Source: Saprospiraceae bacterium
GTDB lineage: Bacteria; Bacteroidota; Bacteroidia; Chitinophagales; Saprospiraceae
Assembly (NCBI GenBank): GCA_021739645.1
Contig: JAIPBL010000044.1
Coordinates: 1 to 52,138 of the forward strand
Direction of reading: 5' to 3'
Length of the DNA stretch: 52,138 bases
Each line of letters opens with the position of its first letter. Within the stretch, counting starts at the first letter, position 1. The notes under the pieces are model-generated. The model ran no database searches and was not told the DNA's origin. It saw nothing but the letters and a program-made list of their open reading frames with translations. Both the position numbers and the translations under genes were made by a program. Positions 2,795 through 19,150 of the stretch are shown here, one piece after another.

Positions 2795-5299
2795 TCATTT
2801 TGTTTTCTTGCCCAAACCTATCAGGTTGGCAAATAAACGGTAAGCGCCCGGTACCCCCGAAGGCAGTTCCCGAAAGAACGAAAGGCCTGTGTACACGTAG
2901 TAACCTTCGCCATATTTCGCCACCAGCAGACTGCCGTCACGGGCAGGTTCTTCAGGGTCGTTACAGCTTAAAATCGGCGTAAACTCAGCAGCCCATTCGT
3001 TGGGGAAGTACAGTCCCCGTTCCTGTACCCAGCCCTCAAAGTCCTTCGTCGTGATTTTGTTAGGAGAATTAAGTACGGGATGGTCTGGTGCAAGAAAACG
3101 CATTTCGGCCTCCTCCACCGTTACACGATCACGGCTGACCTTTAGATTGAAAGGTGTTACCTCTTCATCAGGGATAAGCATTCGAGCTGTATTATACTGC
3201 ACGACCACCGTGCCACCTTGCTTGGTGTAATCGAATAATTTAGCTTGGTGGAATTTCAGGCGCTCCAGCGTGTTATAGGCACGGATGCCAATGATCACGG
3301 CATTGTATTTTTTCAGGTTGTCCAGTGTGATGTCCCGATCTTCGAGCAGGTCAACCGTATAGCCAGCTTGACGGAGGCTGGCAGGCACTTTGTCTCCAGC
3401 GCCCATGATGTAACCGATGCGGTCACCGGCCCTTTTGAGGTCGGTACGGGCGACTTTGGCTTCAGAAGGCAACAACAACGTCTGGGCAGGGATATGGTCG
3501 TACTCGATGCTCACCAGCGACTTATCGTAGCGCTGACCGTCCACGGTAGCCACGGGCGTTATTTTGCCCTCCCCATTTGCCGCAGGCGCAAAAACCTGGA
3601 ACGTCACGGTCTGCTCCTCACCTTTTAGTTTTAGGTTAAAATCAATGGCAGTAGGCTCGGCTCGCCAGCCTTTTGGTACGTCGAGGCTGACCTTGCCACT
3701 GGTGTTCGGTGCGCCGGATTTCACCACTACGCTCACTGCACGGGGTTTTGCGTCAGCGAATAAAAGCGCCTCCTCCGTCATGTTGACGAACACGGGCGGC
3801 GTCACCTCGAATGGGCGGTAAACCTCGCCTTTCACGTCGTCGTCTTTTTTGTAAACTACTTCTCGTTCCAGCGTAAATGGCTGGTTATCAACTAAAAAAA
3901 CAAATTCAACCTTGAATTGATGCGGCGTTTCGGGAAGGCCATGCAGTGCCTGTTCTTTCACCGTGTACATGCCGATAGCCCAGTTTTCCGTCAACCAGTA
4001 GGCGCTGGTGTAGGGCAAAGTAGTGGGCAGTGAGAGTTTCTTTTTGAAGGAAAAATCCTTGTTGCTGGCCAATGTGGTATTGAGGGTGGAGTCGGAGCCG
4101 AGGGGCAGGTAGCGCACCGATTGCAACACGACCGGTTCGCTGCTGCGGTTGATGGCTTCCATCGTGAGATTCACCTCTTGACCTGGTGTGGCGGAGAAGT
4201 CGCTGGCTGTTGCCTCCACGAAGAGGCCGAGGCAGTTCGTGATGACCCGCTTGATTTCGGCGAACTTCACCCGCTTCCAGTAGCCGTCGGGGAGTGCCTC
4301 GATTTTTTTCATCGCCTGCATCAGCATTGGTACACTGGCTCCGGGATTGTCAAAGCGGAAATCGCCCTGAACTTTTTTCAAAATATCGCCGATGGGGCCG
4401 CCGCCTTCCACCCTTGTCCAAGTGGTGTTGATGCCTGCGAAGAGGTCGCCGGGTTGTTCTGGCATATCGCCCTTGAGCAGGTCAAGGTACTCCATGTTCT
4501 CGCCACGGCTGCCCACAGAGCCGAAGCCCTGTGACTTGTGCATCGAGCGGCTCTCGGCGGCAATTTCACCGATGGATTTGCCTTGCAGCGGCAGGTAGGG
4601 ACCGGCGTCCACACTCACCATCTTTGACTTGTCGGCGGCGTCGAACTTTTCCTGGCTGCCATAAAACCACCATGAGGTGTTGAAAAACAGGCGCTTGGGC
4701 TTCCAAGGCTGCACATATTTCAGTTGTTCTGGGTAAATATTAGGGTCGTTGGCGAGGTCGAATGCCTCGTAGCTGAGGATGGCGGAGGAGGTGTGGTGGC
4801 CGTGGGTTTTGCCCGCCGAGTTGTGGTCGAAACGGTTGACGATGACATCTGGCTGCCATTTGCGGATGGCCCAGACCACATCGGCCAACACTTCGTCCTT
4901 GTTCCACATTTTGAGGGTTTCATCGGGGTGCTTGGAGTAGCCGAAGTCATTTGCTCGGCTGAACATTTGCGTGCCACCGTCAATTCGACGAGCGGCCAGT
5001 AGCTCCTGTGTGCGGATGACACCGAGCAGCTCCTCGATTTGAGTACCGATGAGGTTTTGGCCACCGTCGCCACGGGTGAGCGAGAGGTAGGCCGTATTCA
5101 TGTGCTGGTCGTTGGAGAGCCAGGAAATGAGCCGGGTATTCTCGTCATCGGGGTGAGCAGCCACGTAAAGCGCTGAACCGAGGACATTGAGTTTTTCGAT
5201 GGCTTGGTAGATTTCGGAGGAGTTGAGGCGTTCAGGACGCTGTGCGAAGAGGCTGGTGATGACCAGCAGGAACAGCAATGTGAGTCGGCAATTTTTCAT
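2795..5299 (-). CDS. Secreted PIG-L family deacetylase, large form
   Basis: The N-terminal signal peptide (MKNCRLTLLFLLVITSLFAQ) predicts export from the cytoplasm. It is followed by the PIG-L/LmbE fold: AAHPDDENTRL near residue 45 supplies metal ligands, and KTHGHHTSSAI near residue 165 the later histidine. PIG-L enzymes remove N-acetyl groups from amino sugars. The remaining 550 residues contain beta-rich segments resembling NPCBM/CARDB-like modules and a C-terminal region (GAGDKVPASLRQAGY onward) of the glutamine-amidotransferase-like type. At 834 residues it matches the long Bacteroidota form rather than the 230-residue core enzyme. The start at 5299 is chosen because it opens the signal peptide. 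The substrate is unknown. Confidence 0.85.
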   Translation of the reverse strand: MKNCRLTLLFLLVITSLFAQRPERLNSSEIYQAIEKLNVLGSALYVAAHPDDENTRLISWLSNDQHMNTAYLSLTRGDGGQNLIGTQIEELLGVIRTQELLAARRIDGGTQMFSRANDFGYSKHPDETLKMWNKDEVLADVVWAIRKWQPDVIVNRFDHNSAGKTHGHHTSSAILSYEAFDLANDPNIYPEQLKYVQPWKPKRLFFNTSWWFYGSQEKFDAADKSKMVSVDAGPYLPLQGKSIGEIAAESRSMHKSQGFGSVGSRGENMEYLDLLKGDMPEQPGDLFAGINTTWTRVEGGGPIGDILKKVQGDFRFDNPGASVPMLMQAMKKIEALPDGYWKRVKFAEIKRVITNCLGLFVEATASDFSATPGQEVNLTMEAINRSSEPVVLQSVRYLPLGSDSTLNTTLASNKDFSFKKKLSLPTTLPYTSAYWLTENWAIGMYTVKEQALHGLPETPHQFKVEFVFLVDNQPFTLEREVVYKKDDDVKGEVYRPFEVTPPVFVNMTEEALLFADAKPRAVSVVVKSGAPNTSGKVSLDVPKGWRAEPTAIDFNLKLKGEEQTVTFQVFAPAANGEGKITPVATVDGQRYDKSLVSIEYDHIPAQTLLLPSEAKVARTDLKRAGDRIGYIMGAGDKVPASLRQAGYTVDLLEDRDITLDNLKKYNAVIIGIRAYNTLERLKFHQAKLFDYTKQGGTVVVQYNTARMLIPDEEVTPFNLKVSRDRVTVEEAEMRFLAPDHPVLNSPNKITTKDFEGWVQERGLYFPNEWAAEFTPILSCNDPEEPARDGSLLVAKYGEGYYVYTGLSFFRELPSGVPGAYRLFANLIGLGKKTK

Positions 5300-5380
5300 G
5301 TCGTTGATTATTTTTGAAATGCGAAGATAGTCGAAAGGAAAAAGTACACGCTGAAAAGGGAAAAGTTTGAACGGAGCCAT

Positions 5381-5890
5381 TTATTTCTTGAAACCGATGC
5401 GCTCCCGTTTTTCCCATTCTTTTTTGTCCTTGCGCTCCCGCATCAGCAGGGTAAGGGCTTGTTCAACGTCTTCGAAACGGATTTCAAGTTCGTCGAGCCG
5501 CAAGGCGAGTTCAGTGTAAGTTAGTGCGTAGCGGCGGATGGCGACGAAGGCTCGCATAATAGCGATGTTGACAGCGATGGCTTTTTCGCTGTTCAGGACG
5601 GAGGAGAGCATGGCGACGCCTTGCTCGGTGAAAACAAAGGGCAGGTATTTAGAATACTTGCCTCTTTGAGAACCCTCTTTCTCTAAGGTCACAATTTGTG
5701 ACCTTAGAGATTTGAATTCTGATTTGGTCAATTCAAACATGAAATCTGGTGGAAAACGTTGCAAGTTCCTGCGAACTGCTTGTTTTAAGACTTTGGTTTC
5801 AATACCATACATCTCGGCCAAGTCAGCGTCCAGCATGACTTTCATTCCCCGTATCTCATGGATTTTCTGTTGGATAAGTTGGAGCTCCAT
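5381..5890 (-). CDS. ORF6N domain protein, phage-type DNA-binding protein
   Basis: The first 90 residues (from MELQLIQQKIHEIRG through DADLAEMYGIETKVLKQAVRRN to RFPPDFMFELT) are a clear ORF6N domain, a DNA-binding module common in phage antirepressors and in scattered chromosomal genes of Bacteroidota. FVFTEQGVAMLSSVL is also typical. The C-terminal third is a charged helix likely to form a coiled coil (ALRLDELEIRFEDVEQAL). At 169 residues it appears complete. The start at 5890 gives the usual N-terminus. It is separated from the desaturase gene by a perfect 22-bp palindrome. There is no other phage gene nearby, so it is probably a lone acquisition of unknown role. Confidence 0.87.
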   Translation of the reverse strand: MELQLIQQKIHEIRGMKVMLDADLAEMYGIETKVLKQAVRRNLQRFPPDFMFELTKSEFKSLRSQIVTLEKEGSQRGKYSKYLPFVFTEQGVAMLSSVLNSEKAIAVNIAIMRAFVAIRRYALTYTELALRLDELEIRFEDVEQALTLLMRERKDKKEWEKRERIGFKK

Positions 5891-5936
5891 ATTCTCATAG
5901 TTTTTGTTCTGAGTCAAATATAGTGCTCCCATTTAC

Positions 5937-7064: not shown

Positions 7065-8825
7065 TCATTTAATCGTCTCCGTCACCCTCCCACATTTCAG
7101 CATCTTCTCGCCAAAATAAGGGTTTCGGATTTCCTTGTCCAAGCTTAGCCAATCGGCCCCGACATTACCGTCGGCCATAGGACAGTGCTGCACGTAAATC
7201 GCCGAGTCAAACGGCCCGAAGGCTTGCGCCAGGGCCACCATTTGTTCGGAAAGCGGTTTGAAATGCAGTCTCGCCACCTCCAAGTCTTTTGCGACAACTA
7301 ATTTATTCAGCGTCACCACGGCAGCGCCGCTGTGTTTCATCCAGTGGTCGTGCGCCGGGCCGGAGAACAGGCCCATGCTCGTCTTTTCAAAAGCCTTTTT
7401 CAAATCATCCCCTTGCTTTTTGGCGGTAGTAAAATCGCCATTTATCAACGCATCTTTCATCGGAAAATAAAGGTCGAACAACTGTTTTACCGCTGCTTTG
7501 GCAGGTTTGCTCACCTCCATTGGCTGCATGGCAGCGGGCGCAGTTCCGCCGTGATAATGCCCCGTCATTACAGCGCCGCCGCTTGGGTTCATCATGCTCG
7601 GCTTGCCCGCCAATTGCGCAGCAGCATCAATGGAAAAGGTGCCGTTCACAGCGATTTCAGTACCGGGTTCCAAGCCTTTCTTCACCACATAATTGTCGCC
7701 GACCAACGGCCCAAGCGTAACCTCCTGCATCAGGAAGCTGGTGCCTTGTTCGGTCGTGTTTTTCACATAAACCACCGAGCGCTCGCCCGTCCACATCACA
7801 GCAGTTTTGGGTGCCATGATGCTTTCCTTGTTGCCCGCCAACTGGGTTTTGATGATGCCGCTAGCAAACATTTCGGGCTTCAGTTTGCCGCTGGGATTGG
7901 CTATTTCTACCCTCGCCGTGGCCACCCTCATGGCGGGGTTGATGACGGGGTCAATGAAGGTAATTTTCCCGGTAAAATTCTCGCCCGGCACCGATTGAAT
8001 GGTGAACGAAACCGTGCTGCCTACCTTCGCCCAGCTCATGTCGCTCTCGTACACGTCGAACAGCACCCAGACCCTCGACAAGTCCACGATGTCGAACAGT
8101 GGCATTCCTCGCATGACGTAGTCGCCGAGGTTCACCTTTTTCTCCATGACGATGCCGCTCACATCAGCCGAAATTGGGAAGCGCTCCTGCGCCTTGCCAG
8201 CGGTCAAAATGCCCTCAATTTGCTGGTCGCTCAACTTCCAGTTTTTCAGCTTCTGCTTGGCTGCGGTGAACAGGCCGGGCTGCATGTCCTTGATTTTTTG
8301 CGCAGCAAAAAGCTCCTCCTGCGCCGTCACCAGTTCAGGCGAGTAAATGCTCGCAATCCTTTGCCCACGCCGCACGGGTTCACCAGTGAAATTGATGGTG
8401 AGCTGCTCCACCCTCCCGTCGAGGTGGGTCACTTGCGAGTATTTCAGCCGCTCGTCTGGCTGCACCTTGCCGTTCATGCGCACCTCTTTGGTGGGCATTC
8501 CAAAACCGACCACCGCCGTCTGCACATTGGCCAATTGCATTGCTGTTGGCGACATTTTGATTTCCATCGGGTCGCCTTCCGACGAGGTGTTGTCGTCCAG
8601 CGGAATTAAGTCCATGCCGCAGATGGGACATTGGCCGGGTTCTGATTGCCGGATTTGGGGGTGCATGGAGCAGGTCCATGTTTGATTGTTTGATTGTTGA
8701 ATTGTTGAATTGTTTGTTGGTTCCTCGGCGTGGCTGGGCTTGATGAGCCAGCCAATGAGGAGGCCCACCGCCAGCATGACGATGGCGGTGACGAGGATGT
8801 TGCGGTTGAATTTTATCTTTTTCAT
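7065..8825 (-). CDS. cusB: RND efflux periplasmic adaptor, CusB type, with metal-binding head and DUF3347 tail
   Basis: This membrane-fusion protein links the CusA-like pump to the outer-membrane channel. An N-terminal membrane anchor (NILVTAIVMLAVGLLIGWLI) is followed by a short linker. Next comes a heavy-metal-binding module (TWTCSMHPQIRQSEPGQCP then ICGMDLIPL), then the barrel-sandwich and alpha-hairpin domains (VRRGQRIASIYSPELV and ISADVSGIVMEKKVNLGDYV). The C-terminus (from about residue 450, including HDHWMKHSG and YVQHCPMADGN) is a DUF3347-like domain rich in His and Met. Methionines and cysteines throughout fit Cu(I)/Ag(I). The start at 8825 opens the anchor. The linker just before TWTC is encoded by four 8-nt tandem units (8680-8711). 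Its neighbours cusC and cusA support the role. Confidence 0.92.
   Translation of the reverse strand: MKKIKFNRNILVTAIVMLAVGLLIGWLIKPSHAEEPTNNSTIQQSNNQTWTCSMHPQIRQSEPGQCPICGMDLIPLDDNTSSEGDPMEIKMSPTAMQLANVQTAVVGFGMPTKEVRMNGKVQPDERLKYSQVTHLDGRVEQLTINFTGEPVRRGQRIASIYSPELVTAQEELFAAQKIKDMQPGLFTAAKQKLKNWKLSDQQIEGILTAGKAQERFPISADVSGIVMEKKVNLGDYVMRGMPLFDIVDLSRVWVLFDVYESDMSWAKVGSTVSFTIQSVPGENFTGKITFIDPVINPAMRVATARVEIANPSGKLKPEMFASGIIKTQLAGNKESIMAPKTAVMWTGERSVVYVKNTTEQGTSFLMQEVTLGPLVGDNYVVKKGLEPGTEIAVNGTFSIDAAAQLAGKPSMMNPSGGAVMTGHYHGGTAPAAMQPMEVSKPAKAAVKQLFDLYFPMKDALINGDFTTAKKQGDDLKKAFEKTSMGLFSGPAHDHWMKHSGAAVVTLNKLVVAKDLEVARLHFKPLSEQMVALAQAFGPFDSAIYVQHCPMADGNVGADWLSLDKEIRNPYFGEKMLKCGRVTETIK
8680..8711 (-). 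repeat. Four 8-nt tandem units inside the cusB linker
   Basis: On the minus strand the units are AATTCAAC twice and then AATCAAAC twice. They encode the Asn/Gln/Ser/Thr-rich linker NSTIQQSNNQT between the membrane anchor and the metal-binding head. The unit length is not a multiple of three, so loss or gain of one unit would shift the frame. Confidence 0.8.
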
Positions 8826-8845
8826 TTTAAAAAAATTGCATCGTG

Positions 8846-8915
8846 TTTTGTCATTGCCGCAGGCAACCTGCAACGTCATTTTCGATTTAGCAGATTGCCT
8901 TCGGCAATGACAAAA
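8846..8915. repeat. 26-bp inverted repeat between cusC and cusB
   Basis: The arms at 8846-8871 and 8890-8915 match at 24 of 26 positions (core TTTTGTCATTGCCG) with an 18-base loop. It fills the gap between the cusC stop (8920) and the cusB start (8825). It could attenuate or stabilise the operon message. The sequence type resembles dispersed intergenic hairpins seen in many bacterial genomes. Confidence 0.7.
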
Positions 8916-8919
8916 AAGG

Positions 8920-10155
8920 TTATTTTCCGGTCAAATAATCCAGTTTCACCAGTGCCAGCTGGTACTCCGTTTGCGCCGAAACCTTCTCCATCCGGTACCG
9001 GAAAAGCTGTTGCTGCAAGCGCAAAATTTCGTCAAAATCCTGCCCGGCGTTGCTGTAAGCCGCCATCATGAGGTCAATCGCCTGTTGGGTTTTCGCCATT
9101 TGCAGGTTCAGCAGTTCGACCATTTGCGCCATTTTTTCTACTTCGTAAAAACTCATTTCGTACATGGCAGCAAGTTCGTTCTGCATGTCTTGTTTCATGT
9201 CGGCGTACATCACCTGCATCAGCCGCCGCTCCTCGACAGCGGCGTTGTATTTTTTGTTCCAAATCGGCACGGTGACAGAGACCATCGGCATGAACATATC
9301 CTTTCCCGTGTTGGGTTCGATATGCACGTCGTGGCTCTTTCTTTTCACCAAAGGCATGTACTGTAACCCACCGCCAATCATGGGTTTTCGCATGAAATCC
9401 GCCACTTTCTCCTCCGCTTTCGCCACTTGGATTTGTTTGTCAAAAACCGCCAACATTGGGTTGTTGCCAACGAGGCTGTCCCGACGTGCAGCCGCTCCTA
9501 CGACAGGCTCCGGCAAGCTGCCGGAAATGGTGACGGGCGATGCCGCATCCCTCGCCAGCAGTTGGTTGAAGGCGATTTCCAGCGGCTTTCGTTTTTGTTC
9601 CAAAATGGCGATTTCAGTTTTCACTTCGTCCATCATGATGTCCGCCCGAATGGCATCTACCATCGGCGCCTGGCCCTGTTGGAATTTAACGGTGGCCAAT
9701 TCCTTGTCTGTCTCCAACACCCGCAGGTTTTCCCGCTGGATGCGGATTTGCTCTTCCAATTCGAACAACGGATACCAGGCGCTTTTCACCTTGAAAAAAA
9801 GCTCGTTTTGCGCCACGGCCACGGCTTGCAATTTTACCTCGGCCATCCGTGCCGCTTCGTTCTCCATGGCATCGAGCGAACCGGGCCACGGGAACATCTG
9901 CATCGCTGAGATACTGCCGAGTTGGTTGCCCATTGGCAGCATCATCGGGCTGAGGAAAAAGGCGGCGTTCACCGTCGGGTCGGGCAGTGATTTTGCCTGC
10001 GGCAATTTTTGCAGCGCCGCCTGAAATTCCGTCTGTTTCGCCCGGATGCCGGGGTTGTTTTCGGCGGCGATTTGGAGGTAGTTTTCCAGCGTCTGGGCAT
10101 TGGCAGAAATGGCCAAAAGTATTGCCGCTACTGCTATTTTGAGTTTCATTTTCAT
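8920..10155 (-). CDS. cusC: TolC-family outer membrane channel, CusC type
   Basis: This outer-membrane factor provides the exit duct of the metal efflux complex. A signal peptide (MKMKLKIAVAAILLAISANAQ) is followed by TLENYLQIAAENNPGIRAKQTEF, the usual N-terminus of the family. Two long helical halves follow, containing PDPTVNAAFFLSPMML, WPGSLDAMENEAARMAEV and the second-repeat segment VPIWNKKYNAAVEERRLMQ. There is no lipobox cysteine, so it is not lipidated like E. coli CusC. Methionine content is high. It lies upstream of cusB on the same strand, in an order not broken by other genes, and is divergent from the DUF6934 gene. The start could be at 10155 or 10149. Confidence 0.9.
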   Translation of the reverse strand: MKMKLKIAVAAILLAISANAQTLENYLQIAAENNPGIRAKQTEFQAALQKLPQAKSLPDPTVNAAFFLSPMMLPMGNQLGSISAMQMFPWPGSLDAMENEAARMAEVKLQAVAVAQNELFFKVKSAWYPLFELEEQIRIQRENLRVLETDKELATVKFQQGQAPMVDAIRADIMMDEVKTEIAILEQKRKPLEIAFNQLLARDAASPVTISGSLPEPVVGAAARRDSLVGNNPMLAVFDKQIQVAKAEEKVADFMRKPMIGGGLQYMPLVKRKSHDVHIEPNTGKDMFMPMVSVTVPIWNKKYNAAVEERRLMQVMYADMKQDMQNELAAMYEMSFYEVEKMAQMVELLNLQMAKTQQAIDLMMAAYSNAGQDFDEILRLQQQLFRYRMEKVSAQTEYQLALVKLDYLTGK

Positions 10156-10227
10156 TGTTTGCACTTTTCACTTTGTTAAATCTCTGGTTTCCCTATTTTC
10201 GTTTTGCAAAACAAAAAATCAGCTGAC

Positions 10228-10688: not shown

Positions 10689-11036
10689 ATGAAAAGCGAA
10701 GCCTTGCAAAAAGAAGCTCCTACCAAGCCCAGTACGTTAAAAAAAGTAGCTCCAACACCTTCGAAAGAAGCACTTGCCATCATGGAAAATGTTGGCAAAG
10801 TCATCTTCTTTCCCGAGAAATATTTCAAAGGCCAGCGTAGCTATATTGCGGATAGAGTCAACGAAATCCATATCGCCAATCCCACCCTCCCTATTCGCCA
10901 AGTCGTCGTCAATATCCTAACTCGACTCCCCGACTTCCTCCCCCCCGACAACATCCTAGATGTCACCCGCCAAATCGTCGAACAATGGCAAAAACTGACG
11001 GAAGTAGCAGCAGCGCCTGCCTCTCCAATTTCCTAA
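10689..11036 (+). CDS. Small conserved-type protein paired with the DUF6934 gene
   Basis: A 115-residue protein of unknown function. The first 35 residues are lysine-, proline- and alanine-rich and probably disordered (KEAPTKPSTLKKVAPTPSKEAL). The rest is predicted helical: MENVGKVIFFPEKYFKGQRSYIADRVNEI, then QVVVNILTRLPDFLPPDNILD. It follows the DUF6934 gene by 26 bases on the same strand, so the two are likely co-transcribed and may act together. A toxin-antitoxin-like or regulatory pair is a guess. Its stop overlaps the cusA stop by 4 bases in convergent orientation, which suggests tight insertion without spare DNA. Confidence 0.65.
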   Translation: MKSEALQKEAPTKPSTLKKVAPTPSKEALAIMENVGKVIFFPEKYFKGQRSYIADRVNEIHIANPTLPIRQVVVNILTRLPDFLPPDNILDVTRQIVEQWQKLTEVAAAPASPIS

Positions 11037-14000
11037 TTTTCTAATTTTCCAATTTTCGCCTGCTTCTTCACCACCCCTTCCCGCCAATACGCCTGCAACA
11101 CCGGCACCACGAACATGGTCATCAACTGAATCGTCATGCCCCCGAAAGTAGGTATCGCCATTGGCACCATGATGTCGGCACCTTTTCCGGTGGAGGTCAG
11201 CACAGGTAGCAAGGCGATGATGGCCGTAGCCGCCGTCATCATGGCGGGGCGCACCCGCTTTTTACCGGCCTCCAAAACGGCAGCACGGACTTCCGGCACG
11301 GTTTGCGGATTCCTTTCTTCGAAGACCTGGTGGATGTACGTCCCCATAATCACCCCGTCGTCGGTGGCGATGCCGAACAGGGCGATGAAGCCCACCCAGA
11401 CCGCCACGCTGAGGTTGATGGGGTGCAGTTGGAACAACTCCCTCATGCTCACTTCGGCGATGGAAAAATTGAGGAACCAATCCTGCCCGTACAGCCAGAG
11501 CATAATGAAGCCACCAGCGAACGCCACGAACACGCCTGAGAAGTGGATGGACGAGGCAATGACCGTTTTAAACTGAAAAAACAGCAACAGGAAAATCAAA
11601 ATCAGACTGATGGGAATGACGATGGACAGCCGCTTCATCGCCCGCAACTGGTTCTCGTAAGTGCCTGAAAACTTGTAGCTGATGCCAGCGGGTACGACCA
11701 GACTGCCGTTGTCAATCCGCTCCTGGATGAACCGCTGCGCCTGCTCCACCACGTCCACTTCTGCGTAGCCTTCTTTTTTGTCGAGCAGCACGTAGCCCGT
11801 GAGGAACGTGTCCTCGCTCTTTATCATCTGCGGGCCTTGGACGTACTCGATTTTGACCAGTTCGCCGAGCGGCACCTGCGCCCCAACGGGCGTTGGTACG
11901 AGCATTTTCTTGATGCTCTCCGGGTTGTCCCGCAGCTCACGGGGGTAGCGCACCCGCACAGGATAGCGCTCCCGGCCCTCCACGGTGGTCGTCACCTCCA
12001 TGCCGCCGATGGCGGTTTCGATGAAATTCTGCACGTCTTCGATGTTCAGGCCGTAGCGTGCGATGGCCACCCGGTCAATGTTCAGTTGGAGGTAGGGCTT
12101 GCCCACGATACGGTCGGCGAAAACGGCCTCGGGTTTTACCGAAGGAACTTCTTTTAAAATGCCTTCCAGTTGAAGTCCAAAATCCTCGATGGTCTTCAAA
12201 TCTGGCCCATACACCTTGATGCCCATCGGCGCTCGCATACCCGTTTGCAGCATGACGAGGCGGGTTTCGATGGGCTGCAATTTCGGGGCGGAGGTGACGC
12301 CGGGGATTTTAGTCACTCGCACAATTTCGTTCCAGATGTCATCGGGGCTTTTGATTTCGGGACGCCAGTTTCGGTAAAACTGGCCATCGGGGTCAGTGAT
12401 GAGGTCGGTGGGTTTTACCCCTCGAAGCAATGCTTCTTCGTTCGTGAGCGTATCGCCCGAAACAAGAATAAAGCGCTCTTTTTTATCCGTTTTAAAAGTT
12501 TCCCGTTTTCCATTTTCATTGATTAAAAACTCCGGTTTGTAGTTGATGATGTTCTCGAACATCGAAATCGGCGCTGGGTCGAGGGCGGTTTCGGCACGGC
12601 CAGCTTTGCCAACGGCCAGGTCCACTTCGGGAATGTTGGCGAGCAGCATGTCGAGCTGTGCAACTACCCGCTGGTTTTCTTCCACGCCGGAATGCGGCAT
12701 GGAGGTGGGCATCAGCAGGAAGCTGCCCTCGTTGAGGGAGGGCATGAACTCCTTGCCCATGCCGGGGAATTTGTGAATCATCGTGCTCCAAACCCCGGTC
12801 GTGCGGACGTTCCAACCGACCTTGTCAAAACCTTTGGCTGCGAACCCGAAAGTCTTGTTCCAACCAATCCAGATGACCAGCCCGAACAGGATGGTGAACA
12901 GCGGCAGCAGCATGAATTTGCCCTTGTTTTCGAGGCACCATTTTAAAACAGGTTCGTAAAAATGGACGATGGAAAGCAGTGCGCCGAGGATGATGCCCAG
13001 CAGCATAAGCACGAACAAGTAGTTGACAAACAGCGAATTGTGATGTCCCAGCAGACTCCATTCCTCCGCCAGAAAAAAGGTGGCCACCAGCACGACGACG
13101 GCGATGTTGATGATATTTGGAAAGTGCTTCCAGCGTTCTGGCCATTTGGGTTCAAACAAATTATTCAGCCCAATCACCACCAGCCACACCGGCAGCCAGG
13201 TTTTGAAAACCACAGCGAACAGGCTGCCTGCGGCAATGAGCGCGACGTTCCATACAATTCGTACCCTTTTTTTATCAAAATTCAAGGACAAAACAAGGTG
13301 CGCCAAGGCCGGAAGGACGACGATGCCGAGCAAAAAAGCAGTGCCCAGAGCAAAAGTTTTGGTGAACGCCAGCGGTCTGAACAGTTTGCCTTCCGCCGAT
13401 TCCATCGCAAAAACTGGCAGGAAGCTCACTACCGTCGTTGCCAGCGCCGTAGTGATTGCGCCTGAAACTTCCGCCGCCGCTCGGTAGATAACCTCAAGCA
13501 ATTCCCGTCCTCGGGCGCCTGCATTCTCCGGCAGTTCGAGGTGGCGGATGATGTTTTCAACAAAAACAATCCCCACGTCCACCATCACGCCGATGGCGAT
13601 GGCGATACCGGACAGCGCCACGATATTGGCGTCCACGCCGGCGTAGCGCATGGCGATGAAGGTCATCAGCACGCCCACCGGCAACATGCTCGAAATGAGC
13701 AGCGACGCCCGGAGGTTGAGCATCAGGATAATGACCACGATGATGCTGATGAGGACTTCGTGGGAAAGTGCCCGCCCCAGCGTACCGAGCGTTTCGTGGA
13801 TAAGCTGTGAACGGTCGTAAAAGGGCACGATAGTGAGCTGGCTCATCGTGCCGTTTGCGAGCGTCTTTTTGGGCAGACCCGGGGCAATTTCCTTGATTTT
13901 TTCTTTCACCCGATTGATGACGGCCGGCGGGTTAGAGCCGTAGCGAGCAACGACCACACCACCGGCCACTTCAGCGCCGTCCTTGTCGAGCAGGCCACGG

Positions 14001-14863
14001 CGGGTGGCTGGGCCGAGGCTTACCCGGCCGATGTCCTTGATGCGGATGGGCACGTTGTTATGAACGGCGACGACCGCCAGTTCGAGGTCTTCCACTTTTT
14101 TGATGTAGCCAAGGCCACGCACAAAGTACTCGACCTTGTTGATTTCGATGGTCTGTGCCCCGGCGTCCCGGTTCGATTTTTTCACCGCCGACATCACATC
14201 CATCAGCGGGATGTTGTAGGCTTTCAGGGCATCGGGGTTCACGTCCACCTGGTACTCCTTCACCTGCCCGCCGATGGAGGCGACTTCGGAAACACCCTCC
14301 ACGGAATTGAGCGCATATTTCACGTTGAAATCCTGCACAGACCGGATTTCGTTCAAATCCCAGCCGCCGGTGACATTGCCCGCCGAGTCCCGCCCTTCGA
14401 GGGTGTACCAGTAAACTTGCCCAAGCGCCGTAGCGTCCGGTCCGAGCGCAGGCGACACCCCCGGCGGCAAGAGGCCGGAGGGCAGCGAATTCAGCTTTTC
14501 CAAAATCCGGCTGCGTGACCAGTAGAACTCGGTTTTTTCATCGAAAATAACGTAGATGCTGGCGAAGCCAAACATGGAAGTGCTGCGGACGGAACTCACA
14601 CCGGGGATGCCCAACAGGAAGGTCGTGAGCGGGTACGTGATTTGGTCCTCCACGTCCTGCGGGGAGCGGCCCATCCAGTCGGCGAAAACGATTTGCTGGT
14701 TCTCGCCGAGGTCGGGGATGGCGTCCACGGGCACGGGGTCGGAGGGCAGGAAGGTTTTCCAGCCGAACGGCGCCGTGACCACGCCCCAGCCGATGAACAT
14801 CGCCAGCAAAAGCAGCGTGACGAATTTATTTTCGAGGAAGAAGCGGATGATTCCGTTTAGCAT
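11033..14863 (-). CDS. cusA: Heavy-metal RND efflux pump, CusA/CzcA family
   Basis: This inner-membrane proton-driven pump exports metal ions through CusB/CusC. The N-terminus (MLNGIIRFFLENKFVTLLLLAM) is TM1, followed by the PN1 porter region (DWMGRSPQDVEDQITYPLT), DVGIVFVENIIRHLE in TM4, and IALFGIATDDGVIMGTYI in TM10. VMLQTGMRAPMGIKV matches the region holding the Cu(I)-binding methionines of CusA. At 1276 residues it is about 230 longer than E. coli CusA. The extra sequence lies around residues 540-690, where several additional hydrophobic segments occur (IVWNVALIAAGSLFAVVF, NIAVVVLVATFF, YLFVLMLLGIILGALL), and in a second insert near 800-860. I recall similar long forms from other Bacteroidota. 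Confidence 0.93.
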   Translation of the reverse strand: MLNGIIRFFLENKFVTLLLLAMFIGWGVVTAPFGWKTFLPSDPVPVDAIPDLGENQQIVFADWMGRSPQDVEDQITYPLTTFLLGIPGVSSVRSTSMFGFASIYVIFDEKTEFYWSRSRILEKLNSLPSGLLPPGVSPALGPDATALGQVYWYTLEGRDSAGNVTGGWDLNEIRSVQDFNVKYALNSVEGVSEVASIGGQVKEYQVDVNPDALKAYNIPLMDVMSAVKKSNRDAGAQTIEINKVEYFVRGLGYIKKVEDLELAVVAVHNNVPIRIKDIGRVSLGPATRRGLLDKDGAEVAGGVVVARYGSNPPAVINRVKEKIKEIAPGLPKKTLANGTMSQLTIVPFYDRSQLIHETLGTLGRALSHEVLISIIVVIILMLNLRASLLISSMLPVGVLMTFIAMRYAGVDANIVALSGIAIAIGVMVDVGIVFVENIIRHLELPENAGARGRELLEVIYRAAAEVSGAITTALATTVVSFLPVFAMESAEGKLFRPLAFTKTFALGTAFLLGIVVLPALAHLVLSLNFDKKRVRIVWNVALIAAGSLFAVVFKTWLPVWLVVIGLNNLFEPKWPERWKHFPNIINIAVVVLVATFFLAEEWSLLGHHNSLFVNYLFVLMLLGIILGALLSIVHFYEPVLKWCLENKGKFMLLPLFTILFGLVIWIGWNKTFGFAAKGFDKVGWNVRTTGVWSTMIHKFPGMGKEFMPSLNEGSFLLMPTSMPHSGVEENQRVVAQLDMLLANIPEVDLAVGKAGRAETALDPAPISMFENIINYKPEFLINENGKRETFKTDKKERFILVSGDTLTNEEALLRGVKPTDLITDPDGQFYRNWRPEIKSPDDIWNEIVRVTKIPGVTSAPKLQPIETRLVMLQTGMRAPMGIKVYGPDLKTIEDFGLQLEGILKEVPSVKPEAVFADRIVGKPYLQLNIDRVAIARYGLNIEDVQNFIETAIGGMEVTTTVEGRERYPVRVRYPRELRDNPESIKKMLVPTPVGAQVPLGELVKIEYVQGPQMIKSEDTFLTGYVLLDKKEGYAEVDVVEQAQRFIQERIDNGSLVVPAGISYKFSGTYENQLRAMKRLSIVIPISLILIFLLLFFQFKTVIASSIHFSGVFVAFAGGFIMLWLYGQDWFLNFSIAEVSMRELFQLHPINLSVAVWVGFIALFGIATDDGVIMGTYIHQVFEERNPQTVPEVRAAVLEAGKKRVRPAMMTAATAIIALLPVLTSTGKGADIMVPMAIPTFGGMTIQLMTMFVVPVLQAYWREGVVKKQAKIGKLEN

Positions 14864-14913: not shown

Positions 14914-15342
14914 TCAACAACAGTTTTCTCCAGCCTGTATCGGCGGGCATTTCACCGAACCAAAAGAGCAGTAAACGCAGCAGTCGCCGGGCTTTGGGCG
15001 CAGCAATTGGTGGCAGTTTTCGCACTCGTAAAAGAACTGACAGGCGTCCGTGGGCATGGTTTCCATTTTTTGAAAACCGCAGCTTGGGCAGGTTAGCAGG
15101 CTTTGCAAAACGACCCCGCCCGACTGGCTGGCCTTCCTTTTTTGCCAAAACTGCCACCCAGCCCAGCCCAGCAAACCAGCGCCCACTGCCATCAGCAGGC
15201 CGCTGTATTTTTCCAGCCCGTCTGAAAATGCAGACAATCCGGCAGCGCCGCCAAGCGCCAGCACGAGGAACGGAAGCCAGCAGCAGCTCGTCGCCAGTAT
15301 AAAAGCGAAGGCTGCTCCTATCAGGGAATGTTCAATTTTCAT
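14914..15342 (-). CDS. MerT-like membrane protein with a cysteine-rich C-terminal module
   Basis: Residues 1-65 form a two-helix membrane segment with a vicinal cysteine pair in the first helix (LATSCCWLPFLVLALGGAAG), as in the mercuric transporter MerT. The C-terminal half is soluble and has CPSCGFQ, then CENCHQLL and finally GDCCVYCSFGSVKCPPIQ. That last stretch is a strongly conserved motif of a small Bacteroidota family that often accompanies metal-resistance genes. The fusion of both parts in 142 residues suggests uptake or handover of thiophilic ions such as Hg(II) or Cu(I). It sits 50 bases upstream of cusA and 28 bases downstream of the first peroxidase gene, consistent with one operon. 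Confidence 0.8.
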   Translation of the reverse strand: MKIEHSLIGAAFAFILATSCCWLPFLVLALGGAAGLSAFSDGLEKYSGLLMAVGAGLLGWAGWQFWQKRKASQSGGVVLQSLLTCPSCGFQKMETMPTDACQFFYECENCHQLLRPKPGDCCVYCSFGSVKCPPIQAGENCC

Positions 15343-15370: not shown

Positions 15371-16447
15371 TCAAAACGGCGACGAAAACCGCTCGTCCGT
15401 CATGAACGATATGTCGGTAAGCGTCTTCAAAAAAGCTATCAAATCGGCCTTGTCCTGTCCCGTCAATTGCAGGCCAGGACTGAGATTGTACTGCATCAGC
15501 GGGTCAATCGTGGAGGAGTTTCTTGCTCCAAAATTGTAGTGCTCCACTACTTCTTCCAGCGTAGCGAACCGCCCATCGTGCATGTAGGGGGCGGTCAGTT
15601 CGATATTGCGAAGTGAAGGCACCTTGAACTTCGCCTTGTCGGCTGGGTCGTTGGTCACTGTGAAGCGGCCCTCGTCCTTGAAGTCTGCATCAGCGTCGAG
15701 GCCGTTGTTCATGTACTGGTCGTTGGTGAAGTTGAAACCACCGTGGCAATGGAAACACTCGCCGCCTTTTTGCCCAGAAAACGGGTCAAATTCTGCAAAA
15801 AACAGTTCTCGGCCCCGCTCCTCGCTCTCCGACAAAGTGGCCGTTCCAGCAAGATAGCCGTCGTACTTCGACTTGTTGGAAATCATCGTGAACTCGAACT
15901 GCTCCATCGCCAGCCCCATGCGCTCCGACGTGATGTTGTCGTCGCCAAACGCCCGGATGAACTGGTCGGTGTATCGCTTGTCGGCTTTGAGCTTCGCAAC
16001 GGCGTTTTCGAGGGTCTCGTTCATTTCCAGCGGGTCTTGAATGGGCTTGAGCGCCTGGTCACGCACCAGCGGTGCACGGCCATCCCAGAACATCCCGTTT
16101 TTGTGCCAAGCCAAATTGAACACGGCCATGGCCTGCCGCTTGCCCGGCAACTCTTCCACGCCGATGCTGAACTGCCGCATGTCGCTGAAACCCTCCGCCT
16201 GCACATGGCAGTCGGCGCAGGCCTGTGAGCCGTCTTTCGACAGTTTTTTTTCATAAAAAAGCATCCTGCCCAGCATCACGCCAGCATTTGTCAAGGCGTT
16301 GTCGGCAGGGATGTTTGGGTTGGGAAAGTCGCCGTAGTCAAGGGCGTAGGGCGTTGGGTCGTACTCTGCCGCCGGGGTATTGTCGTCTTTGTTGCAGGCA
16401 ATCATCAGGGCTGTCAAGGTGAAAAAAGTTAGGATAAATTTTTTCAT
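15371..16447 (-). CDS. Diheme cytochrome c peroxidase / MauG-MbnH family lipoprotein (1)
   Basis: A 358-residue diheme enzyme with two heme c sites, CADCH (77-81) and CFHCH (231-235), and the conserved C-terminal TAPYMHDGR (285-293). The signal peptide ends in the lipobox LMIAC, with Cys18 as the acylation site. The residues after it, NKDDN, closely resemble the QKDDE-type lipoprotein export signal that sends Bacteroidota lipoproteins to the cell surface. MauG-like enzymes use two hemes for peroxide reduction or for oxidising protein tryptophans. MbnH is the member that acts on MbnP. A second homologue and an MbnP-like gene follow upstream in the same direction. The start at 16447 begins the signal peptide; the frame upstream is non-coding. 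Confidence 0.9.
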   Translation of the reverse strand: MKKFILTFFTLTALMIACNKDDNTPAAEYDPTPYALDYGDFPNPNIPADNALTNAGVMLGRMLFYEKKLSKDGSQACADCHVQAEGFSDMRQFSIGVEELPGKRQAMAVFNLAWHKNGMFWDGRAPLVRDQALKPIQDPLEMNETLENAVAKLKADKRYTDQFIRAFGDDNITSERMGLAMEQFEFTMISNKSKYDGYLAGTATLSESEERGRELFFAEFDPFSGQKGGECFHCHGGFNFTNDQYMNNGLDADADFKDEGRFTVTNDPADKAKFKVPSLRNIELTAPYMHDGRFATLEEVVEHYNFGARNSSTIDPLMQYNLSPGLQLTGQDKADLIAFLKTLTDISFMTDERFSSPF

Positions 16448-16473
16448 AAAAAATTGATTTGCAGGAGCTTGTG

Positions 16474-17478
16474 TCACTCCTTGAATTTTGGATTGTTTAA
16501 AAAATCGTCGTCCGTCAGGGCTTTTAGGAAACCCACCAAGTCGGCCTTCTCCTGTGTGGACAAGCCGAGTGGTTTTATCGACGGACTTTGGTGTGGGTGG
16601 TTTTTGCCACCTGAATTGTAGTGCTCCACCACGGCCTCCAGCGTCGGCAGCGAGCCGTCGTGCATGTAGGGTGCCGTGACACCTACGTTGCGGAGCGTCT
16701 GCACTTTGAACAGCGCCCGGTCTTCTTCCTTGCCCGTGAGGCGGAAGCGCCCGGGGTCGGGATAGTCTTCGTAAAGGCCGTTGTTCTCGAAGGCGTAGTT
16801 GGTGAAATTGAACCCACCGTGGCATTGTGAGCAGGCAAGTTTCTCGCTGAAAAACAAGTCCTTGCCACGCTTTTCCGCTTGATTCAGCGCACCATTTTTA
16901 CCGTTCAAAAACTCGTCATACGGGCTGCCACCACTCAGCATCGTCCGCTCAAAACAAGCAATGGAGCGGGTGATGACGAAGGCATCCGGTTCCCGGTCGT
17001 AGGCCGTCCGGCTGGCCTGCACGTAGCTGCTGTCTTGGTTCAGTCGCTCCGCAATGTCGAGGATGTTCATGTCGAACTCGTTGTGCTCCTGAATGGGCAC
17101 GAGCACCTGCATTTCCAGCGTTGGCACACCGCCTTCCCTCGTGAAATAGGGGTGATAGGCGATGTTGGCCAAAGTAGGCGCATTGCGGGTACCGGGCCTG
17201 CCTTCCACGCCAGGGCTGAACGCCCGCAGGTCGCTGAACGCCAGCTCCGGCAGGTGGCACGAAGCGCAGGAAACCTTGCGGTCGCTCGACATGACGGGGT
17301 CGAAAAACAGCCGTTTGCCCAATGCCCAGCGCTCCGGCGTCAGTTCATTCCCTTCGGGAAAAACGGGCGCAGGGAAGCCTACCGGCACGGCCAATAATGG
17401 CTCGGCGGGCGGCAGGTTCGGCTCTTTTTTACAAGCAAAAAAGAACAAACAGGCAAGGATGAAAAGGCTGTTTCTCAT
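16474..17478 (-). CDS. Diheme cytochrome c peroxidase / MauG-MbnH family lipoprotein (2)
   Basis: A 334-residue paralogue of the neighbouring diheme protein. Heme sites are CASCH (71-75) and CSQCH (216-220), and TAPYMHDGS is near residue 270. The lipobox is LFFFAC with Cys16, followed by KKEPN, a weaker match to a surface-export signal than its neighbour. The two enzymes share layout but differ in the segment between the hemes: WHKNGMFWDGRAPLVRDQAL in the first, YHPYFTREGGVPTLEMQV in the second. In the second, RNAPTLANIAYHPYFTREG resembles classical peroxidase loops. The spacing to the next gene is 26 bases, so both are probably co-transcribed. Distinct substrates or an electron-donor and acceptor pairing are possible. 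Confidence 0.89.
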   Translation of the reverse strand: MRNSLFILACLFFFACKKEPNLPPAEPLLAVPVGFPAPVFPEGNELTPERWALGKRLFFDPVMSSDRKVSCASCHLPELAFSDLRAFSPGVEGRPGTRNAPTLANIAYHPYFTREGGVPTLEMQVLVPIQEHNEFDMNILDIAERLNQDSSYVQASRTAYDREPDAFVITRSIACFERTMLSGGSPYDEFLNGKNGALNQAEKRGKDLFFSEKLACSQCHGGFNFTNYAFENNGLYEDYPDPGRFRLTGKEEDRALFKVQTLRNVGVTAPYMHDGSLPTLEAVVEHYNSGGKNHPHQSPSIKPLGLSTQEKADLVGFLKALTDDDFLNNPKFKE

Positions 17479-17509
17479 GCTAATTTTAATTGCCAAAATG
17501 CCGATGGTT

Positions 17510-17656
17510 GTCCCGTAGCGACAAAATATGGGTAGCAAAAAACCGCCAAGCTGCCACCGTGCCGTAGGTACGGAACCTTGCACGATGTGTACCGTACCTA
17601 CGGCACGGAAATCCTACTTCTAATGTTTTGCTACCCATATTTCGTCCCTATGGGAC
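17510..17656. repeat. Nested inverted-repeat element in the leader of the diheme genes
   Basis: The outer arms at 17510-17540 and 17626-17656 match at 28 of 31 positions (core ATATGGGTAGCAAAA). The inner arms at 17557-17573 and 17592-17608 are a perfect 17-bp pair (CCGTGCCGTAGGTACGG). The outer tips GTCCC.TAG.GAC are themselves near-palindromic. The whole 147 bases can fold into one long two-stem structure. It fills the gap between the MbnP-like stop (17668) and the second diheme start (17478). It may be a dispersed repeat or a processing/attenuation element that lowers peroxidase expression relative to MbnP. Confidence 0.75.
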
Positions 17657-17667
17657 GCTTCTCGAGG

Positions 17668-18642
17668 TTACTTCACCACCAATTTTTCCAGCGCCAAAAA
17701 CTTGTCGCCGCTGAAAATACGAGCTACGTAAATGCCTGACTGCCAGTTGGTTTCGAGGGAAACCGACTGCTGTGAGCCGTTCAGTTTTTGGGTAAAAACC
17801 GTGCGGCCAGCGAGGTCGCTCACGGTCAGTGTCAGTTGGTCGTAGCCGGGCAGGTCGTACTTCACGACAGCAGCGCCACTTGCCGGGTTGGGCGAGATGA
17901 CGAAAGTGCCTGCAATGCCAGGTTCAGTCGTGCCACTCACGACAGAGGGTGAAAAAACAAAGTTTTGCATGTTCCCAGCGAGCTTGGCGGAAGGGCCAGT
18001 GGCGGCATGGGAAATCAAACCGCCCTGCACGTTGATGTCCATGAGCAATTGGGCATAGTCAGCGTCCACGTTGATGGCGAGGTGGTCGCCGTCCACTACA
18101 CCGCTCACGGGGAGCGTAACGGCCAGGTAGTTGGCATCGTCCACGGTGTGGATTTGGAACGCATCGGGGAAGGTCGTGCCGTTGTTACTAGACGTGCCCT
18201 CGAAAGCGATGAAACGGTAGCCCGCCGCCCAGCCCCAGTGCATGACGGGGTTCTTGGGTGCCAACGGGTGGTCGTTCGGATAGCTCGCCGGGTCGAGGTG
18301 GTTGAATGCAGGGTCAACGCCGATGGAGAACTCAATGCCCTCGATGATTGTCACGTCGAAGCTGCCCAACCCGAAGATGCTATCTTCTTGTGCCGTCACA
18401 AGCAGATGCAGGTCGGTCACGGGCGTCACTTGCCCGCCGTCGTGGACGATTTTGATTTCGGAGACGTAGTACTGCAAACGGGTGACTTTCACCAAGTAGT
18501 CGCTGGGCACGGTGACTGCCGAGTTGAGGACAAATGGCTGGTCGCCCAGCTTTTGGTGCATGTGCAGGGTGACGTTCATCTGTGCGTTCAGGCCTTGGCC
18601 GAACATCGCTGCGAGAAGTAGAAGTAAAAATTTGTTCTTCAT
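17668..18642 (-). CDS. MbnP-like copper-binding protein with T9SS sorting domain
   Basis: After a signal peptide (MKNKFLLLLLAAMFGQGLNAQ), residues 22-240 resemble the MbnP domain: VTRLQYYVSEIKI, an acidic FNHLDP segment, and the hallmark MHWGWAAGYRFIAFEG. The only tryptophans of this domain are the two in HWGW. MbnP proteins bind copper after a diheme MbnH enzyme converts a Trp to kynurenine. The C-terminal 75 residues (VISPNPASGAAVVKYDLPGY to LALEKLVVK) are a type A T9SS sorting domain, so the protein should be secreted across the outer membrane. Two diheme genes follow on the same strand. The start at 18642 begins the signal peptide. Confidence 0.85.
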   Translation of the reverse strand: MKNKFLLLLLAAMFGQGLNAQMNVTLHMHQKLGDQPFVLNSAVTVPSDYLVKVTRLQYYVSEIKIVHDGGQVTPVTDLHLLVTAQEDSIFGLGSFDVTIIEGIEFSIGVDPAFNHLDPASYPNDHPLAPKNPVMHWGWAAGYRFIAFEGTSSNNGTTFPDAFQIHTVDDANYLAVTLPVSGVVDGDHLAINVDADYAQLLMDINVQGGLISHAATGPSAKLAGNMQNFVFSPSVVSGTTEPGIAGTFVISPNPASGAAVVKYDLPGYDQLTLTVSDLAGRTVFTQKLNGSQQSVSLETNWQSGIYVARIFSGDKFLALEKLVVK

Positions 18643-18769: not shown

Positions 18770-19150
18770 CTATTGCTCTAAACTCTCGGTGCGGTCGAAC
18801 TGGCAGCAGCCGTGGAGTTTATTGTAAGCTGCGTCTTTAGCCTTGTACTTCGGCGTGTCATAGCCAGTTTTGGCAATGGCCTTCTGTATCTTGTTCACGT
18901 TGGTTTTGCCACCGTCGAAAGTGACCGTCAATACGTGAAGCTCCTTGTCCCATTCGGCCGTAGTGGCACCCGCCTTGGTGGCGGCTCCTTGAATGGTTTT
19001 CTGGCACATGCCGCAGTTGCCGAGCACCTTGAAGGTCTCGGTCTTTTCAGTTGTAGAGGCTGCTTTGGCAACAGTTGCATCTTGGCCATTAGCTGAAAAG
19101 GCCATGAAAAATGCCAGCAGCGCAGGCAGAATGATTTTTAAATTTTTCAT
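18770..19150 (-). CDS. Exported heavy-metal-associated (HMA) domain protein
   Basis: A signal peptide (MKNLKIILPALLAFFMAFSANG) is followed by an alanine/threonine-rich linker and an HMA fold. The fold has the metal loop GNCGMCQKTIQ, with cysteines in the CxxC arrangement of copper chaperones and MerP, and the later strands ELHVLTVTFDGGKT and KAIAKTGYDT. The C-terminus adds HGCCQF, a second possible thiol site. It probably shuttles Cu(I) or Hg(II) in the periplasm. It lies upstream of the MbnP-like gene on the same strand, with a 127-base gap in which I saw no strong hairpin. Confidence 0.88.
   Translation of the reverse strand: MKNLKIILPALLAFFMAFSANGQDATVAKAASTTEKTETFKVLGNCGMCQKTIQGAATKAGATTAEWDKELHVLTVTFDGGKTNVNKIQKAIAKTGYDTPKYKAKDAAYNKLHGCCQFDRTESLEQ

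Follow-up and report, generated by a model that had tools for sequence, protein, structure and literature searches.

An MbnP-type protein with a type IX sorting domain and two unequal MbnH-type dihemes beside Cus-type efflux genes in a Saprospiraceae bacterium

We analysed a stretch of 52,138 nucleotides (the window), covering positions 1 to 52,138 of contig JAIPBL010000044.1 in the assembly GCA_021739645.1 (6.16 Mb, 147 contigs) of a Saprospiraceae bacterium. Positions 15371-18642 of its minus strand hold a gene for an MbnP-domain protein and two genes for diheme lipoproteins of the MbnH/MauG type. A preliminary description, made from the sequence alone, had proposed such an MbnP-like gene followed on the same strand by two diheme lipoproteins, and all three genes were confirmed. 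In the order of transcription, the MbnP gene (17668..18642) is followed after 189 nt by the first diheme gene, D1 (16474..17478), and after another 26 nt by the second, D2 (15371..16447). The diheme starting with CNKDDN had been called the first, which is true in plus-strand order only; in transcription it is the second, behind the diheme starting with CKKEPN. The complete gene order is HYC_CC_PP, HMA/MerP-like, MbnP, D1, D2, MerT-like, CusA/CzcA, TolC and CusB-type. We found the unit to be a genuine, widely distributed and self-consistent variant of the MbnP/MbnH pair, which has gained an export tag and a larger number of histidines and has two dihemes of unequal kind.

The MbnP protein of 324 amino acids matches PF20243 over residues 23-205 with 107.9 bits (cut-off 27). 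A search of the Protein Data Bank (PDB) with its sequence alone returned weak matches only and no MbnP, and a profile was used for this reason. The profile of 77 MbnP relatives found 7l6g, the MbnP of Methylosinus trichosporium, at E 3.1e-6; it aligned the motif MHWGW with MAWNW and the conserved MbnP histidine with a histidine of 7l6g. An AlphaFold2 model with the 77-relative alignment as input reached a pLDDT of 93.2 and a pTM of 0.73, and its six best Foldseek matches in the PDB were all chains of 7l6g (probability 1.00, E 1.1e-8 to 1.2e-7). The MbnP fold and the place of the HWGW tryptophan, both of which had been put forward for checking, are thus borne out. The same holds for the claim that the domain has Trp only in MHWGWAAGYRF, as in the translation W136 and W138 are its only tryptophans, a third one being located inside the sorting domain.

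This C-terminal sorting domain covers residues 249-323 and passes two curated cut-offs (PF18962, 32.2 bits against 27; TIGR04183, 37 bits against 23). At the N-terminus a signal peptide is predicted, with the mature start after ...LNA-QMNV; signal peptides were called by a hydropathy heuristic, and lipoboxes and flanking genes by simple rules of our own. SprA, the component of the type IX secretion system (T9SS) that we searched for, is encoded in the same genome (478.3 bits), and all 150 scored proteins out of 331 candidates matched the sorting domain. As had been described, the protein therefore combines the features of a T9SS type A cargo, namely a sorting domain over the cut-off, a predicted signal peptide and SprA in the genome. 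It would cross the outer membrane by the T9SS and end up secreted or bound to the cell surface.

Relatives were surveyed in stretches around PF20243 matches from a phylum sample and a family sample (101/392 and 283/298 genomes with the domain, respectively), plus five extra loci. Removal of identical domains reduced 180 MbnP open reading frames (ORFs) to 177 distinct MbnPs in 167 loci; L001-L052 and L064-L093 were left out for their short flanks, and L217, L219 and L220 as repeats of L094, L097 and L095. The extension past the MbnP domain is bimodal in the 180 ORFs, with 22-53 aa in 144 and 113-124 aa in 34 of them, and two extra ORFs with extensions of 100 and 113 aa and no sorting-domain match were later put in the long class. 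We call an MbnP with the long extension, which holds the sorting domain, a CTD-MbnP (C-terminal domain); L182 and L211 were assigned by extension length alone. This divides the survey into 33 CTD loci and 134 other loci, and the MbnPs into 33 CTD-MbnPs and 144 others. In selecting some of the Saprospiraceae regions we gave priority to long frames, the number of dihemes being unseen at that point, so that CTD-MbnPs are over-sampled. By our heuristic a lipobox is present in 0/33 CTD-MbnPs against 112/144 others, and a signal-peptide-like start was found in 32 of the 33, the remaining N-terminus being cut off.

W136 and H165 are invariant in the 77 aligned MbnPs (27 CTD-MbnPs and 50 others). M134 is present in 100% of the 27 and in 74% of the 50, and it is also invariant in a CTD alignment of 31 rows. 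MbnH, a diheme enzyme of the MauG family, is said to oxidise a tryptophan of MbnP to kynurenine; reportedly it is the first Trp of the WxW motif that is converted, and a His and a Met bind Cu(I). On this basis we take M134 and H165 to be the Cu(I) ligands of the window protein. W136 would then be converted to kynurenine by a MauG-type diheme with H2O2, which would complete the Cu(I) site together with M134 and H165. To our knowledge, kynurenine copper sites have been found in few proteins, namely MbnP, MopE and CorA. Moreover, five histidines (H67, H115, H125, H135 and H212) mark the CTD branch, being present in 89-100% of the 27 CTD rows and in 4-22% of the 50 others; around H212 the alignment consists mostly of gaps for the non-CTD MbnPs.

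A survey of Bacteroidota for the co-occurrence of CTD-MbnP with MbnH of the CNKDD type had been called for, and a pairing with dihemes was found in relatives. Counts were restricted to MbnPs that have 2.6 kb or more of room behind them (32 CTD-MbnPs and 139 others). Two dihemes follow 21 of the 32 CTD-MbnPs, one diheme follows 8, and none follows 3. Among the 139 others, 127 have one diheme behind them, 5 have two and 7 have none, where the five include two MbnPs sharing one pair (L249) as well as L167. The difference in two-diheme pairing (21/32 against 5/139) gives a Fisher p of 1.4e-14 uncorrected for ancestry. All CTD-MbnPs fall on one side of a single tree branch (support 99), and the pairing is kept in loci from four family codes (f1, f2, f23 and f25). 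The branch is spread over numerous Saprospiraceae genera and also reaches other families of the phylum. Within Saprospiraceae, a CTD-MbnP profile had matches with an E of 1e-30 or lower in 157/398 genomes and 61/112 genus codes, totals that are truly somewhat lower because the weakest matches listed are MbnPs without a sorting domain.

Before we took a further 20 CTD loci from these profile matches, at one locus for each genus code, we put a prediction in writing. The loci were picked by hand without sight of the dihemes, and some eligible matches were passed over (for example in G460, G495, G497, G510 and G713); L319 was dropped because it lies on the same contig as L096, which left 19 new loci. 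Since they are high-scoring matches to the CTD profile, it was close kin that was tested, with the conserved residues partly selected for. Two dihemes were present in 14/19 loci, the second of L320 being cut by the contig end, and one diheme in 5/19, where two of the five stop at the end of their contig. Another of the five, L322, has behind D1 a frame of 193 aa that contains just one CxxCH. The prediction held in that all 14 pairs have the Arg-type before the Trp-type diheme described below. Histidines 67, 125 and 212 were present in 19/19 and histidines 115 and 135 in 18/19 of the loci. First set and further loci share ancestry and are no independent events. With 21/32 and then 14/19 loci, the arrangement is more than chance.

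Both dihemes of the window contain two CxxCH motifs and, by our heuristic, a lipobox (LACLFFFA^CKKEPN in D1, TLTALMIA^CNKDDN in D2). Their closest solved structure is MbnH, 6e1c (8.9e-55 for D1, 7.2e-57 for D2), which ranked above peroxidases and MauG, and TIGR04039, the MbnH equivalog, is the best NCBIfam model for both (280.2 and 250.2 bits). A tyrosine occupies the ligand position of the second heme (Tyr287 in D1, Tyr304 in D2), a position that we take to be equivalent to that of the Met ligand in the peroxidase NgBCCP. This tyrosine is conserved in 30/30 D1, 21/21 D2 and 115/126 single dihemes, and in the alignments of D1 and D2 with 6e1c MbnH has it as well. The catalytic Glu is present in 30/30 D1 and 21/21 D2. 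Both enzymes thus show the two CxxCH motifs, the ligand Tyr and the catalytic Glu of the MauG/MbnH type. With MbnH as their best structural match and the Tyr conserved, we rejected the possibility that they are ordinary peroxidases. None of the findings that were named beforehand as fatal to the proposal, i.e. no MbnP fold, no pairing in relatives or dihemes of peroxidase type, was made.

The two enzymes differ at the inter-heme position. Here D1 has Arg in 28/30 cases (Arg114 in the window) and Phe in 2/30, whereas D2 has Trp in 21/21 (Trp121, in FWDGR). All 21 surveyed pairs have Arg in the first diheme and Trp in the second. Among 126 single MbnHs, the position is held by Trp in 100, Tyr in 10, Leu in 4, Ala, Arg and Lys in 3 each, Phe in 2 and His in 1. 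The inter-heme Trp98, Gln108 and Glu118 of NgBCCP, spaced +10/+20, are described together with a Met at the second heme in an excerpt of PMC10094543, and W121, Q131 and E141 of D2 have the same spacing. The Trp midway between the hemes is present in D2 and absent from D1; that it is not universal in dihemes of this type is shown by BthA of Burkholderia. According to excerpts of PMC6405878, BthA is a MauG-like diheme with a Tyr-His second heme and Ser257 at the place of the Trp. By this description it is a precedent for D1 as a MauG-like diheme without the Trp; in contrast to BthA, D1 has Arg there and is paired with an MbnP and a Trp-keeping sister diheme. D1, which adjoins MbnP, would be the cognate partner, with Arg instead of the inter-heme Trp relay, while D2 keeps the canonical relay along with the Tyr ligand position and the Gln/Glu pair, and more often has a surface-export-like N-terminus.

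It could be argued that the dihemes serve peroxide defence within an operon for metal resistance and leave the Trp of MbnP unmodified. Both contain a CCP_MauG domain (Pfam), D2 has the full Trp/Gln/Glu set of the peroxidases, and the Arg of D1 could impede electron transfer between the hemes. However, the ligand Tyr is present in every D1 and D2 as in MbnH, which is the best match of both; among the 139 non-CTD MbnPs with room, 127 have a single diheme behind them, and W136 is invariant in all 77 rows. We therefore regard a role in peroxide defence as improbable.

D1 and D2 of the window share 43% identity. When 97 dihemes were placed in a tree, the 21 second ones all fell into a single clade (support 99), and the first dihemes together with the lone dihemes behind CTD-MbnPs fell into another one (support 92, or 84 in a tree of 92 rows); 34 of the 126 single dihemes were included in these trees. 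A recent tandem duplication in the window was rejected because of this identity and because each diheme groups with the D1 or D2 of other species. An ancient duplication as the origin of D1 and D2 was unrejected by the approximately unbiased (AU) test (p 0.099). In L167, a CTD-MbnP and its D1 are directly preceded by an MbnP of the lipoprotein kind, and this MbnP is followed by a D2-like diheme that falls in the D2 clade. This arrangement suggests that the tandem arose on loss of the second MbnP. D2 might accordingly be the stranded partner of a lost MbnP that now serves another MbnP in trans, and the genome of the window indeed contains further MbnP loci. Against this, D2 stands beside the CTD-MbnP in 21 surveyed and 14 further loci. 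Moreover, over 20 loci, L216 being left out, pairwise identities of D2 and MbnP correlate (r 0.84) about as well as those of D1 and MbnP (r 0.86), although species ancestry alone could explain this. A stranded D2 seems doubtful to us.

By our heuristic, 28/30 D1 and 20/21 D2 are lipoprotein-like. The rule published for surface export in Bacteroidota, C-X-K-(D/E)2-X after the lipobox (given in excerpts of PMC5080379), fits CNKDDN of the window D2, while CKKEPN of D1 has no acidic pair; several other D1s also fit the rule. To calibrate it, D or E at +3 or +4 was counted in proteins of 13 related genomes, namely in the lipoproteins that our own rule recognised among 30 SusD and 30 adaptor loci, and was found in 25/26 SusD proteins and in 8/16 RND-adaptor lipoproteins that are presumed to be periplasmic. 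The corresponding counts were 18/28 for D1, 18/20 for D2 and 60/102 for single dihemes. The difference between D1 and D2 has a Fisher p of 0.051, and a p of 0.003 by number of acidic residues. In the further loci the counts were 14/18 for D1 and 14/15 for D2, with 1.89 and 2.67 acidic residues on average (p 0.014). The export signal noted earlier in CNKDDN thus fits the published rule, with limited specificity; it is suggestive, and was rejected as proof of surface exposure since half of the presumed periplasmic adaptors have acidic residues too. On these residues, surface exposure of D2 is favoured.

Proteins exported by the T9SS pass through the periplasm. Maturation could hence be wholly periplasmic and precede export, with CNKDDN leaving D2 unexposed and enzyme and substrate never meeting outside, where it had been suggested that they could meet. 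In line with this, CorB is found mostly in the periplasm even though CorA sits on the surface (excerpts of PMC3912023), the window D1 has no acidic pair, and acidic residues are also found in the adaptors. On the other hand, D2 comes nearer to SusD than the adaptors do (18/20 for D2, 25/26 for SusD and 8/16 for the adaptors), and its acidic excess over D1 is repeated in the further loci. We give this possibility a little less than an even chance; it concerns the location only and is compatible with the rest of the explanation that we prefer. A more elaborate scheme is a maturation line of two enzymes, in which D1 and a surface-facing D2 each perform an oxidation of their own on the exported MbnP, or each act on a residue of their own. 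H67, H115, H125, H135 and H212 would form a second copper site next to the kynurenine site, and redox maturation would continue outside the outer membrane. We consider this scheme unlikely. It had been proposed that two diheme paralogues divide the work; the two are in fact non-equivalent and may divide it.

The genes around the unit are also on the minus strand. Upstream of MbnP, at a distance of 127 nt, is a MerP/CopZ-like HMA-domain protein (18770..19150) with a signal-peptide-like start; its PF00403 score of 24.3 bits is just under the cut-off of 24.8, and TIGR02052 (33.6 bits) is under its cut-off as well. It is preceded by an HYC_CC_PP protein (20066-19587). Only 28 nt behind D2 follows a MerT-like membrane protein (14914..15342), with the GDCCVxC domain of (seleno)proteins (NF041374, 105.9 bits, cut-off 40; PF02411 under its cut-off with 25.2 bits), for which no match was found in the other 166 surveyed loci. 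After 50 nt there is a CusA/CzcA-family heavy-metal RND efflux pump (11033..14863; TIGR00914, 780.2 bits, cut-off 701.45), after 868 nt a TolC/OEP outer-membrane efflux protein (8920..10164; PF02321, 127.3 bits) and after 40 nt a CusB-type efflux adaptor (7065..8879) with a heavy-metal-binding domain and DUF3347 (PF16576, PF19335 and PF11827 with 234.2, 50.9 and 69.4 bits). Between MbnP and D1, a palindromic element (17510-17656) consists of inverted repeats of 31 and 20 nt. It has 50 matches in the genome, a number that includes this site and its inverted copy, and therefore resembles a REP-type (repetitive extragenic palindromic) repeat that has entered the operon, with a possible effect on how MbnP and D1 expression are coupled.

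Matches to CusA, CusB, TolC and HMA of the window or to the multicopper oxidase of L225 were found near 10/33 CTD loci and 4/134 others (p 1.5e-5; 9/32 and p 5.4e-5 without the window), a comparison in which CTD loci are favoured, as the queries come from the window and one CTD locus. When all flanking genes were clustered with no query chosen, the cluster of CusA was present in 5 CTD loci and 1 other. Next to two protein families described below, the most frequent cluster of the other loci is one represented by a TonB receptor (17/134); this cluster and one of SCO1/SenC (7/134) are in 0/33 CTD loci, with receptors of other clusters standing outside this comparison. When 115 flanking proteins were scanned for known families, few recurred among the first 25 of 153 matches. 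The clusters point to efflux-linked copper handling in the CTD branch and to uptake or homeostasis in the rest.

The unit had been proposed to be a copper scavenger or sink. As a secreted scavenger it would be induced by copper shortage and collect Cu(I) at the surface for an uptake system, as has been proposed for MopE/SACCP and CorA/CorB of methanotrophs. Excerpts of PMC3912023 describe MopE and CorA as secreted or surface kynurenine copper proteins that are repressed by copper and co-transcribed with a diheme, SACCP as being on the surface with MopE, and the proposed role of both systems as copper acquisition. The TonB and SCO1/SenC clusters make uptake plausible for the wider family, yet they were found only in its non-CTD part. 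In the CTD loci it is Cus, TolC, HMA and multicopper oxidase matches that recur, and in the window D2 leads by short gaps into the MerT-like gene and CusA. A scavenger thus appears rather unlikely, and with metal-efflux genes as neighbours a sink or efflux partner fits better. The unit, standing beside a Cus-type pump and an HMA protein, would most likely bind or buffer copper outside the membrane.

Taken together, we lean slightly towards an export-linked branch of MbnP/MbnH, in which a kynurenine-type copper protein would be exported by the T9SS, served by two non-equivalent dihemes and linked to copper efflux. Several observations weigh against this reading. The match to 7l6g, although significant, is loose, with a TM of 0.43-0.46 by query (which counts the sorting domain in) and 0.47-0.50 by target, an rmsd of 5.5-6.1 and an identity of 15-16%. 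The MbnP equivalog TIGR04052, of the WxW/four-Cys type, reaches 43 bits against a cut-off of 140, and the translation has no Cys at all and thus no four-Cys motif; with fold and Trp motif matched and TIGR04052 under its cut-off, the protein stands outside the named equivalog. Likewise both dihemes are under the TIGR04039 cut-off of 362.85, and the AU test leaves D1 and D2 as one clade unrejected. No second diheme is present in 11/32 CTD loci with room, three of which lack both, and L334 has a Trp-type diheme only. Several independent gains of the pairing were rejected, since the independent-pairs test found a single independent pair and no significance; as the CTD-MbnPs form one branch and D1 and D2 one group each, pairing and Arg/Trp split are largely inherited. 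Residues resembling the lipoprotein export signal (LES) are common in these lipoproteins and the difference between D1 and D2 is modest. Finally, copper-type genes stand near 10/33 CTD loci only, three of these ten belong to a single genus, and the window exceeds the other loci in length.

The unit shares with MbnP/MbnH of M. trichosporium OB3b (7l6g, 6e1c) the domain, the fold, the M-x-W-x-W motif, the conserved His and a neighbouring MauG-type diheme whose ligand position is held by Tyr. It differs by the T9SS sorting domain, two dihemes instead of one, the lack of the inter-heme Trp in D1, the five branch-specific histidines, the efflux-operon context and scores under both NCBIfam cut-offs; in addition, the 7l6g molecule is named after a four-Cys motif, and the window protein has no cysteine. 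With Cus-type copper/silver RND efflux operons it has in common CusA, CusB, TolC and HMA-type proteins beside the unit. We know of no MbnP or diheme in classic Cus operons, and the unit may be an extra extracellular copper-binding step beside Cus-type efflux. MopE/SACCP and CorA/CorB are the closest functional parallel and not a matter of membership, as the T9SS route, the second diheme and the efflux context distinguish the unit from these systems as described in PMC3912023 (excerpts). MopE or CorA titles were absent from the 50 Foldseek matches listed for the MbnP model, a search in which no direct comparison was run. Among the matches listed for the literature on T9SS, MauG-type dihemes and copper proteins, judged by title and opening of the abstract, no description of a CTD-MbnP with two dihemes was found. 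The fixed order of Arg-type and Trp-type diheme is a natural experiment on the inter-heme Trp in MauG-type chemistry and makes testable what each diheme does to the substrate that they share. Should enzyme and substrate both be located outside the cell, the formation of protein-derived cofactors at the surface would extend beyond MopE/SACCP of methanotrophs, by another export route.

Two further T9SS-related genes were observed upstream of CTD-MbnPs. L225 encodes a multicopper oxidase with a T9SS sorting domain of its own (4696-5931) directly upstream, and a T9SS protein of about 727 aa is encoded in L094 (5709-7889), L095, L096, L097 and L227, with a choice-of-anchor J domain in L094; in L095 the protein is partial. 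Two protein families were found near non-CTD loci and in 0/33 CTD loci. One of 356 aa (representative L258:4298-5365, no Pfam match) occurs near 48/134 of them and is a possible partner of ordinary MbnP/MbnH; the other one, of 121 aa (representative L169:5410-5772), occurs near 23/134.

In L231, L237 and L238 the CTD-MbnP is without a diheme in the stretch examined, and the genome of L231 also contains L230, a CTD locus with both dihemes. G670:C61:4584-5549 is a CTD-MbnP frame with two in-frame TAA stops. In L056 (G000:C66) two MbnP-type genes, the first a weak match, stand in tandem before one diheme, and similar MbnP doublets were seen in L194, L199, L208 and, with no diheme nearby, L255.

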